Below are positions 37,165 through 63,669 of a stretch of DNA of 64,000 bases, one piece after another; the first letter of the stretch is position 1; each line of letters opens with the position of its first letter. The position numbers and the translations under genes are program-made. The notes below the pieces were generated by a model. It saw only the letters and a list, made by a program, of their open reading frames with translations, did no database searches and had not been told where the DNA came from. This stretch comes from Methanoregula sp. PtaB.Bin085 (GTDB lineage: Archaea > Halobacteriota > Methanomicrobia > Methanomicrobiales > Methanospirillaceae): assembly GCF_002067035.1 (NCBI RefSeq), contig NZ_MVQB01000062.1, positions 1 to 64,000 of the forward strand, in the 5' to 3' direction.

Positions 37165-37947
37165 GTGCGGGAGGACTTTTTTTACCAGAAGGGGGATATC
37201 AGAATCCTCAACAATGACGTTTTCACAACCCGGGCTGTCAGTTCCGGCAGCGTGGATCTTGTCATTACATCTCCGCCGTATAATGTCGATATCCCATATA
37301 ATTCTCACAATGACCGGGGTTCCTATGAGGAATATCTTGCCTTCTCAGACCAATGGATGCGCCGGTGCCATGAATGGCTGAAGGATGACGGGAGGCTCTG
37401 CCTGAATATTCCGCTTGACAAGAACAAGGGAGGACAACAGAGCGTTGGAGCTGACCTGACAACGATAGCAAAAAATGCAGGCTTTTCCTATCACTCAACG
37501 ATTATATGGAACGAGGGGAATATTTCCCGCAGGACTGCATGGGGTTCATGGCTCTCTGCCTCTGCACCTTATGTGATAGCACCGGTCGAACTGATCGTTG
37601 TTTTGTACAAGAATTCGTGGAAAAAGACGAGCGGATCCCGGATATCCGACATATCACGCGATGAATTCATGGCATGGACGAACGGGCTCTGGACCTTTAA
37701 TGGCGAGAGAAAGACAAAAATCGGTCATCCGGCACCTTTTCCTGTAGAACTGCCGCTCCGGTGCATGAAACTTTTCTCTTTCATCGGCGATACTGTGCTC
37801 GACCCGTTCATGGGCAGCGGTTCAACCCTCGTTGCTGCCTCGCTCTGTAACCGCAGGGGGATCGGTATAGAGATTGATCCCCGATATTGCAGGATTGCGT
37901 CGGAGCGCATAGAACGCGAGGCCCCGTTGGAAAAACCTGACGAATGA
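37165..37947 (+). CDS. Orphan DNA methyltransferase (SPPY, N4-cytosine type)
   Basis: 260 residues from GTG 37165, preceded by GGAG at 9-12 nt. The catalytic motif IV is VITSPPYNVDIPYN; motif I is LDPFMGSGSTLVAA near the C-terminus, so it is beta class. SPPY is typical of N4-methylcytosine enzymes such as the CTAG methyltransferases of methanogens. The recognition region includes RRTAWGSWLSASAPYVIAP. Its last codons overlap an exonuclease-like gene (37944) by 4 nt; no restriction endonuclease gene is adjacent. The enzyme at 62755-63669 shares the TAWGSW-type region. Confidence 0.88.
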   Translation: MREDFFYQKGDIRILNNDVFTTRAVSSGSVDLVITSPPYNVDIPYNSHNDRGSYEEYLAFSDQWMRRCHEWLKDDGRLCLNIPLDKNKGGQQSVGADLTTIAKNAGFSYHSTIIWNEGNISRRTAWGSWLSASAPYVIAPVELIVVLYKNSWKKTSGSRISDISRDEFMAWTNGLWTFNGERKTKIGHPAPFPVELPLRCMKLFSFIGDTVLDPFMGSGSTLVAASLCNRRGIGIEIDPRYCRIASERIEREAPLEKPDE

Positions 37948-38699
37948 ACACAAGTACGGCATATATCGACATGGAATTTGCCGGGATCTACGGCACACGC
38001 CAGGGCATGCAGATTCCCATCGAGATCGGAGTGGTTATCCACCACCCCGAAAGCGATACTATCACATTCGCCGGAACAGCATTCAGCCGGCCTGTTGATG
38101 TCGAACTCTGGAAGAATGTTACAGATGATCTCGGGAAACGGATCGAGGGACAGCGCAGGGTATTCAACCTTGCATCCCGGGGGCAAACCAAAAATTTTGA
38201 TAAGAAATTTCATCTTGGGGCAGACGGGCAGAGAGAAGCACGCCGGATAATTGCCCTGGTTTTCAAGGATCTCCGTACATTCATGCGAACACTCAACAGA
38301 AAAGATATCGGGACGCTTGCTTTTTTCGCGCGGAGGCGTGAGATGGAAACCTTCAGGGACTGCCGGATCCAGACAGACGGCTTTATTGTCCGCGATCTGC
38401 AGGATGAGATACGATCCCGGTTTCATCTCAGAGAGCATGTTTCCCTTGATCGTGTCTCCCTCATTACGGATATCGGGATTATGAAGACATCGATCCATTC
38501 TGCTCATTTCACCTATACCCTCCCGGAAAAATTCCGTTACCTGATAAAACCACATAAAGCGATCGGCGATGCGGCACGGATCTTTCTTGTTGATCGTGAA
38601 TTATCCCGGTATCCGGAAGAATTCGGGATTCAGCTCACGGGACATCTCCGGGAATATGAGCGCAGAAAGGATTCAGAAAAATCTGCCCCGGACGTTTAA
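37944..38699 (+). CDS. DEDDh exonuclease-like protein partnered with methyltransferase
   Basis: 251 residues. The N-terminus AYIDMEFAGIYG has D9 and E11, the Exo I signature; near the end, IKPHKAIGDAARIFLVD has H204 and D209, the Exo III signature (HxAxxDA). The middle Exo II position shows FFARRREMETF (E133) instead of the usual Asp, as in divergent ERI-1/KapD-like members. It should be a 3'-5' exonuclease on RNA or DNA, provided E133 can replace Asp. The start overlaps the methyltransferase by 4 nt, a coupled pair I have not seen described. Confidence 0.7.
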   Translation: MNTSTAYIDMEFAGIYGTRQGMQIPIEIGVVIHHPESDTITFAGTAFSRPVDVELWKNVTDDLGKRIEGQRRVFNLASRGQTKNFDKKFHLGADGQREARRIIALVFKDLRTFMRTLNRKDIGTLAFFARRREMETFRDCRIQTDGFIVRDLQDEIRSRFHLREHVSLDRVSLITDIGIMKTSIHSAHFTYTLPEKFRYLIKPHKAIGDAARIFLVDRELSRYPEEFGIQLTGHLREYERRKDSEKSAPDV

Positions 38700-38748: not shown

Positions 38749-38979
38749 ATGATTATGCACTACACCATTATCACGGAACCCCACGAAAAAGGCGGTTTTA
38801 CCGCCCGATGCGTGGAAATTCCGGGTGCAACGGGATTCGGGAACACCCAGGGTGAAGCTCTGGCACGGATCCGCGAAGCAATTGAAGTGGTGCGGGAAGC
38901 ACAGAATGCAGAACTGCACAAGACCATTGCAGCTGTTCATTCTGAGATCATCAAGATCGAAGTCGCTGACTCCGCATAA
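38749..38979 (+). CDS. Orphan HicB-like protein
   Basis: 76 residues from ATG 38749 (MIMHYTIITEPHEKGGF). The HicB/UPF0150 fold is visible: YTIITEPHEKGGFTARCVEIPGATG, then GNTQGEALARIREAIEVV. HicB normally neutralises the mRNA-cleaving HicA, but no HicA-like ORF (about 60 aa, with G-S-H) is adjacent. A C-terminal HTH of larger HicB proteins is missing. It may be a solitary protein with another role. An intrinsic terminator follows at 38981. ATG 38755 is an alternative start. Confidence 0.8.
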   Translation: MIMHYTIITEPHEKGGFTARCVEIPGATGFGNTQGEALARIREAIEVVREAQNAELHKTIAAVHSEIIKIEVADSA

Positions 38980-62754: not shown

Positions 62755-63669
62755 CTACCGGGAATCCTCAATGACAATCAGCCCGGGGGCAGGATACTTC
62801 GGCGAACTTTCAACTCCCCCTGAGGAAGTTTCCAGCCTTTGAAGGGCAGTAGTACAATACTGGCGCGACACATCAATCCCGATGAACCGGCGCCCAAGCT
62901 TGTATGCCACAAGGGAACTCGTCCCGGCACCGTTGAAGGGATCCAGCACGATGTCGTTCCTGTACGAGAAGAGTTTCATCAGCCGACGGGGCAGCTCTTC
63001 GGGAAACATGGCGGGATGGTCATAATCCTTCATCCGGATTTCCGGAGGAAACGACCACTTCCCCAGCACCCACTCTTTGAATTCCTCGGCTGTGATATCG
63101 ATATCCTCGCGCCTGCCGCTTTTCTTGTGCGTTTCTTTCGCAAATACTTCGATGAATTCCCAAGTGTATTTGATATAGGGCATCGAGGGTGATTTCCAGC
63201 TGCCCCATGCCGTGTACTTTGCGTTGTAATTGTTCTTCTCCCAGAGGAACTCGGCTTTCCAGAGCAGCCCGAGATCGGCCAGCTGGTGGGATATTATGTG
63301 GTGCGTCGGGATATAATCCGAGAAGAGTGGCTGGACGTTGACCGCGATGCGGCCACCCGGCTTGAGGACCCGCACACATTCGCGCCACACGGCATGCAGG
63401 TTCCCGAAATACTCGTTCCATTCATGGGTATCGTCGTGGGGGTCCTGGGCATATGAATGGCCGAAGTTATAGGGGGGGGACGTGACGACCAGGTCGATGC
63501 TCTGATCCGGGATATGGTCAAGGACTTTCAGGGCATCGCCGCAGATAATTTTGTTGATGAACGGAGATAACGCGGGTGATTCCTCAGACCGGAAGGTGTG
63601 TTTTGCCTCTTTGGATCCCTTCCGGATCCTGGCCTTTCCTTCCTTGTCCCGGACCTTCTCCGGTTTCAT
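62755..63669 (-). CDS. Orphan DNA methyltransferase (SPPY), third in window
   Basis: 304 residues. Catalytic motif VVTSPPYNFGHSYAQD, motif I VLDPFNGAGTSSLVAY near the C-terminus (beta class). It has a basic 30-residue N-terminal extension (KVRDKEGKARIRKGSKEAKH) absent from the paralogue at 37165. The shared central region is YTAWGSWKSPSMPY plus DITAEEFKEWVLGKW. Expected N4-cytosine or N6-adenine methylation; site unknown. No restriction enzyme gene is near. It lies beside the repeat that runs off the window. Confidence 0.88.
   Translation of the reverse strand: MKPEKVRDKEGKARIRKGSKEAKHTFRSEESPALSPFINKIICGDALKVLDHIPDQSIDLVVTSPPYNFGHSYAQDPHDDTHEWNEYFGNLHAVWRECVRVLKPGGRIAVNVQPLFSDYIPTHHIISHQLADLGLLWKAEFLWEKNNYNAKYTAWGSWKSPSMPYIKYTWEFIEVFAKETHKKSGRREDIDITAEEFKEWVLGKWSFPPEIRMKDYDHPAMFPEELPRRLMKLFSYRNDIVLDPFNGAGTSSLVAYKLGRRFIGIDVSRQYCTTALQRLETSSGGVESSPKYPAPGLIVIEDSR

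Follow-up and report, generated by a model that had tools for sequence, protein, structure and literature searches.

A solitary DNA methyltransferase and a DEDDh-like exonuclease share a locus in Methanoregula, probably as independent neighbours

Does a DNA methyltransferase (MTase) whose gene overlaps that of a predicted exonuclease work together with it? The question is raised by a 64,000-nt stretch of the 2.9 Mb genome of Methanoregula sp. PtaB.Bin085 (hereafter the window), for which a preliminary description had proposed that the two products might form a defence module or a methyl-directed repair pair. The coordinates given there for both genes and for their 4-nt ATGA overlap proved exact. 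The locus comprises the following features.

37165..37947, + strand: solitary DNA methyltransferase (N6_N4_Mtase), GTG start, TSPPY motif, probably m4C-forming (PF01555, E=4e-45)
37944..37947, + strand: ATGA stop/start overlap of the MTase and exonuclease genes, specific to the window genome among the loci examined
37944..38699, + strand: predicted 3'-5' exonuclease of DEDDh-like (DEEDh) type, from an unclassified family, ATG start, 251 aa, assigned from conserved residues, AlphaFold and Foldseek
37968..37976, + strand: Exo I motif D9-M-E11, in predicted beta-strand 1
38340..38342, + strand: Exo II residue E133, close to the N-terminal end of the helix that follows predicted strand 122-127
38553..38570, + strand: Exo III motif H204-x4-D209, at the N-terminal end of predicted helix 206-222

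We consider it probable that the two genes are independent neighbours, a solitary MTase and a stand-alone DEDDh-like exonuclease at a conserved locus. About half of the related species have them as neighbours, and the gene distribution shows that they are not an obligate pair. Because each gene also occurs without the other, a dedicated defence pair is improbable. A literature search found no paper on such a pair.

The five residues on which the exonuclease proposal was based (D9, E11, E133, H204 and D209) are present as described, and are essentially invariant in 73 distinct homologous ORFs. With gaps ignored, D9 is found in 67 of 68 sequences, E11 in 71 of 71, H204 in 70 of 71 and D209 in 70 of 70. 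The Exo II residue differs from the canonical motif, in that Glu replaces Asp in the window protein and in 69 of 71 sequences overall. The remaining two, L149 and L179, are the most divergent members of the family and retain Asp, which allowed us to identify E133 as the Exo II position. Given the Glu, we refer to the protein as 'DEDDh-like' and do not file it as a canonical DEDDh member. A frameshifted relative reads VYGGKTD...HNAIGDA, as canonical forms do; this homologue (L210:6300-7300, genome G142) is split across frames, has a canonical-looking Exo II Asp and is probably a pseudogene. Other marks of the family are an inserted beta region (residues ~52-83, with conserved E54, W56 and G64) and the conserved stretches DLQ (151-153) and SLDR (167-170).

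Searches of Pfam, NCBIfam, PADLOC and PHROG gave no family match for the exonuclease, and a sequence profile search of the PDB was likewise unusable. No member of either exonuclease alignment (A1 and A2) matched PF00929 (RNase_T) or PF16473 (Rv2179c-like) significantly, the best Rv2179c-like match being below threshold (E 0.12), and hhalign revealed no link to local PF00929 and PF16473 alignments, sets that are perhaps too shallow.

An AlphaFold model of the window exonuclease, based on a 23-member alignment, reached a pLDDT of 89.8 and a pTM of 0.87, and a second model, from an alignment led by a relative of 31% identity, reached 93.4 and 0.89. Foldseek matched the models to RNase T, the Pol III epsilon subunit, 3'hExo/ERI-1 and CRN-4 with probabilities of 0.98-1.00; polymerase proofreading domains are also among the best matches, a ranking that leaves aside Prp8 RNase H-like matches of lower probability. 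The E-values of these PDB matches lie between 1e-3 and 1e-2 and the TM-scores are modest (0.3-0.46); for the model of the window protein itself, no PDB match passed E 1e-3. The best viral matches carry exonuclease annotations (E about 2e-4 to 1e-3), apart from one annotated as an endodeoxyribonuclease. In the model, DxE lies on strand 1, the Exo II acid follows strand 122-127, and HxxxxD opens a late helix. Since the TM-scores are modest, the assignment is based on fold class and residues. Taken together, prediction and conservation make it well supported that 37944-38699 encodes a DEDDh-like exonuclease with an RNase H-like fold. The DEDDh-type call of the preliminary description is thus upheld: an RNase H-like fold is predicted, DEDDh exonucleases are among the best PDB matches and the acidic centre is conserved. 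The gene is under purifying selection, with dN/dS values of 0.14-0.24 among the three closest genomes; these values and the confidently predicted fold indicate more than a chance reading frame.

The family shares with RNase T, Pol III epsilon, ERI-1/3'hExo and CRN-4 the predicted fold, the DxE of strand 1, the HxxxxD of the late helix and the placement of the Exo II acid. It differs from them in the absence of detectable PF00929 or PF16473 similarity, in the Glu at Exo II, and in the beta insert and the DLQ and SLDR stretches. The Glu could alter or abolish catalysis, and its presence in nearly all members might indicate a catalytically dead RNase H-fold protein that merely binds nucleic acid. 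We regard this as very unlikely, because the other catalytic positions are invariant, including the general-base His, the divergent members keep Asp, and Glu is able to ligate metal. We propose that D9, E11, E133 and D209 would hold two metal ions with H204 acting as general base, and that the enzyme, judging from its fold and residues, may remove nucleotides from the 3' ends of DNA or RNA. The locus makes an enzymatic test of the DEEDh active site straightforward, and with it that of a possible methanogen defence nuclease.

The MTase ORF contains, besides TSPPY, the motif DPFMGSGSTL close to its C-terminus. PADLOC classifies the protein as a generic MTase_II (306 bits), and among its relatives of known structure are a cytosine-N4 enzyme and a putative modification methylase. 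It is under purifying selection (dN/dS 0.05 among the three closest genomes). Close homologues are found in most of the genus Methanoregula and in a sister genus; the latter lacks the exonuclease. In a tree of 43 MTases (from a short search, with several weak branches), the clade of the window MTase has 31 rows, 17 with the exonuclease at the locus and 14 without. The presence of the exonuclease changes about five times over the tree, compared with 14 in shuffles, which again suggests inheritance with some losses or gains and not shuffling of a module.

No cognate endonuclease of a Type II restriction-modification (R-M) system was found beside the window MTase, whose neighbour is the exonuclease. 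Such systems do occur among its relatives: three MTases, 67-71% identical to that of the window, adjoin a BsaWI-type endonuclease (PF18643) in genomes G020, G018 and G194. The first two pairs were read in their loci and the third was identified from coordinates on one contig (89626-89874 and 90097-90864). These are the only BsaWI-type endonucleases found in the genus, and their MTases form a group of the tree separate from the clade of the window MTase. In contrast, the window genome encodes no BsaWI-type endonuclease anywhere, an unrecognised endonuclease elsewhere in it being possible. The partners of the related MTases and their absence here lead us to read the window MTase as a solitary enzyme with R-M ancestry, and the three BsaWI pairs point to an ordinary R-M history of the MTase that is not linked to the exonuclease. 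The group to which it belongs is mostly solitary and vertically inherited. We also considered the exonuclease as the cognate restriction enzyme of the MTase, and rejected this on the grounds that its predicted fold is different and that the partners of related MTases are BsaWI-like. The second MTase copy of G018 lies in a dense island (L107:1923-6431) with a GmrSD_N protein, a HEPN RiboL-PSP, the BsaWI-type endonuclease and a TIR protein.

In the window, the frh hydrogenase genes lie upstream of the pair and a class I/II aminotransferase gene lies downstream. A small HicB-like ORF with a sub-threshold PF15919 match follows the exonuclease (38749-38979, + strand), and similar small ORFs are found at this place in some relatives. 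The exonuclease is present in 22 of the 39 genomes of the genus. The MTase gene is directly upstream in ten of these, with the 4-nt overlap in the window and gaps of +16 to +47 nt in the other nine, and in eight a DUF362 gene (PF04015) intervenes, the spacing then being about 1.1-2 kb. One of these eight loci additionally carries the BsaWI-type endonuclease. In that locus (L064:3336-7060, genome G020), MTase, endonuclease, DUF362 and exonuclease stand in a row, and the R-M pair occupies the site of the solitary MTase of relatives. Two further exonuclease genes directly follow frhB, the MTase lying on a different contig, and the last two loci are truncated by contig ends. The order of MTase and exonuclease is thus conserved in 18 of the 20 loci with a readable upstream side, with 0-2 genes in between and operon-like spacing in ten. 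The pair therefore extends beyond one genome, and since it recurs in many Methanoregula and the acidic centre is conserved, neither of the two observations that the preliminary description had named as fatal was made. The overlap itself exists in the window but is not a conserved trait of the pair.

Against independence, it should be noted that a partly coupled pair would show the same adjacency in 18 of 20 loci. If the MTase marked self and the exonuclease degraded unmarked DNA, or if both acted in methyl-directed repair, the order kept in 18 Methanoregula genomes, the absence of an intervening gene in ten and the ATGA overlap in the window would be readily explained. However, both genes often occur singly, DUF362 separates them in 8 of 18 cases, and in Methanoculleus and Methanofollis no such MTase adjoins the exonuclease. 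In addition, no feature of the exonuclease points to site recognition, and the pair is not accompanied by a gene for a helicase or a nicking enzyme. A two-gene module should co-occur beyond a single genus, with neither gene kept alone, and this is not what we found. We therefore do not sustain the proposed functional coupling, which we regard as highly improbable. The locus is a test case against deducing function from genes that overlap by 4 nt: widely sampled, these two look like neighbours and not partners.

The exonuclease is present in 74 of 232 genomes of the class, which represent only 6 of 40 genera, and within Methanoculleus and Methanofollis almost every genome searched has a copy (genus names partly deduced from named contigs). 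This near-universal presence looks like vertical inheritance. At none of the inspected loci outside Methanoregula (Methanoculleus, Methanofollis and other relatives) is such an MTase beside the exonuclease. We describe here what appears to be a new DEDDh-like family, largely confined to Methanomicrobiales. In Methanoculleus its neighbours are MoeA, formylmethanofuran dehydrogenase (fmd; names from reading the sequences), DUF362-ferredoxin and RNase III genes, the RNase III being recognised by TIGR02191, PF14622 and a dsRNA-binding domain. At L088:5260-6909 and similar Methanoculleus loci, the RNase III gene is divergent from the exonuclease and adjoins it. An Endonuclease III-like HhH-GPD protein is encoded near the exonuclease at L149:3389-4045, in a MAG labelled Thermoplasmatales.

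The divergent RNase III gene, a neighbour in many Methanoculleus genomes, could be a partner of the exonuclease there, the latter then being an RNase T/ERI-1-like exoribonuclease that trims the 3' ends of structured RNA. The second model does have RNase T and 3'hExo/ERI-1 among its top PDB matches, but Pol III epsilon and CRN-4 match just as well, the exonuclease lacks an extra RNA-binding domain, and RNase III was not seen adjoining it in Methanoregula or Methanofollis. We consider a dedicated role of this kind distinctly unlikely.

Two copies of the exonuclease, both sporadic and diverged in sequence, occur in antiviral settings. In Methanoculleus sp. Afa-1 a divergent extra copy is flanked by a SIR2/STAND-like gene and hmaB, runs antisense to them and forms part of a locus that has all of hmaA, hmaB and hmaC (L178:2-12792; G100:C2:360228-374791). 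This places it between hmaA and hmaB of an Hma defence system (PADLOC), whereas no Hma genes were seen adjoining the window pair. In G317 (L174:3322-6955) a sporadic copy, the sole one among 120 genomes searched (G317 and relatives), is divergent from a two-gene unit with viperin (NF038283, E=1e-78, scoring far over the model's threshold); the viperin gene overlaps a gene for an unknown protein of 557 aa. That only two of ~70 copies are found in such settings suggests recruitment and not a general role.

These copies nevertheless raise the possibility that the family is antiviral independently of methylation, degrading invading or modified nucleic acid, and that the orphan MTase lies beside it by chance. 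There is a precedent in HREX, or EcD, a bacterial DexA homologue that defends against 5hmC-containing phage DNA (PMC12153337) and shows that a DexA-type exonuclease can protect its host. Both are stand-alone exonucleases, and a defence role is conceivable for the window family, but the genomic settings differ and the window exonuclease does not match the Rv2179c-like profile significantly. Moreover, most copies are beside metabolic genes in conserved order (fmd, MoeA and RNase III in Methanoculleus; frh and the aminotransferase in Methanoregula), and hardly any of the genomes searched in Methanoculleus and Methanofollis lacks the gene. A search of viral contigs, phages and plasmids yielded no relatives, only one weak partial plasmid match that lies under an annotated katG. 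We hold an antiviral function to be unlikely. A more specific version, in which a DEEDh nuclease enters Hma and viperin islands and the Methanoregula copy acts on DNA according to methylation by the neighbouring MTase, seems to us quite improbable.

We thus favour two independently evolving genes, which in Methanoregula share a conserved spot after frh (F420-reducing hydrogenase) and usually before the aminotransferase gene. The overlap suggests that they may be co-transcribed in the window, and neither would need the other. The physiological role of the exonuclease is the least certain step; our best guess is general processing or quality control of nucleic-acid 3' ends, with occasional recruitment to antiviral islands. 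We find the exonuclease family more interesting than the proposed coupling. The family itself looks new, and the locus exposes a conserved DEDDh-like group that Pfam, NCBIfam, PADLOC and PHROGs do not recognise and that shows an Asp-to-Glu change at Exo II and occasional antiviral settings.

The MTase, a vertically maintained relative of R-M modification enzymes, would probably place an m4C mark with an epigenetic and not a restriction-linked role. Persistent orphan m4C MTases have been described in the Methanoregula/Methanospirillum group in a survey of archaeal R-M systems, namely HG16 (AGCT), HG18 (GTAC) and HG20 (CTNAG) (PMC10609329). The window MTase resembles them in being a solitary, vertically inherited enzyme of the N4/N6 type. 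Counts of palindromic 4-mers within the 64-kb window did not reveal its recognition site; CCGG is high (1.19 of expectation). CTAG is under-represented in the window, with 9 occurrences against 18.1 expected (0.50 of expectation). A second N6/N4-type DNA methylase is encoded at 62755-63669 on the minus strand (PF01555, E=6e-37); it is ~38% identical to the first, has homologues across the order and is possibly another persistent orphan MTase.
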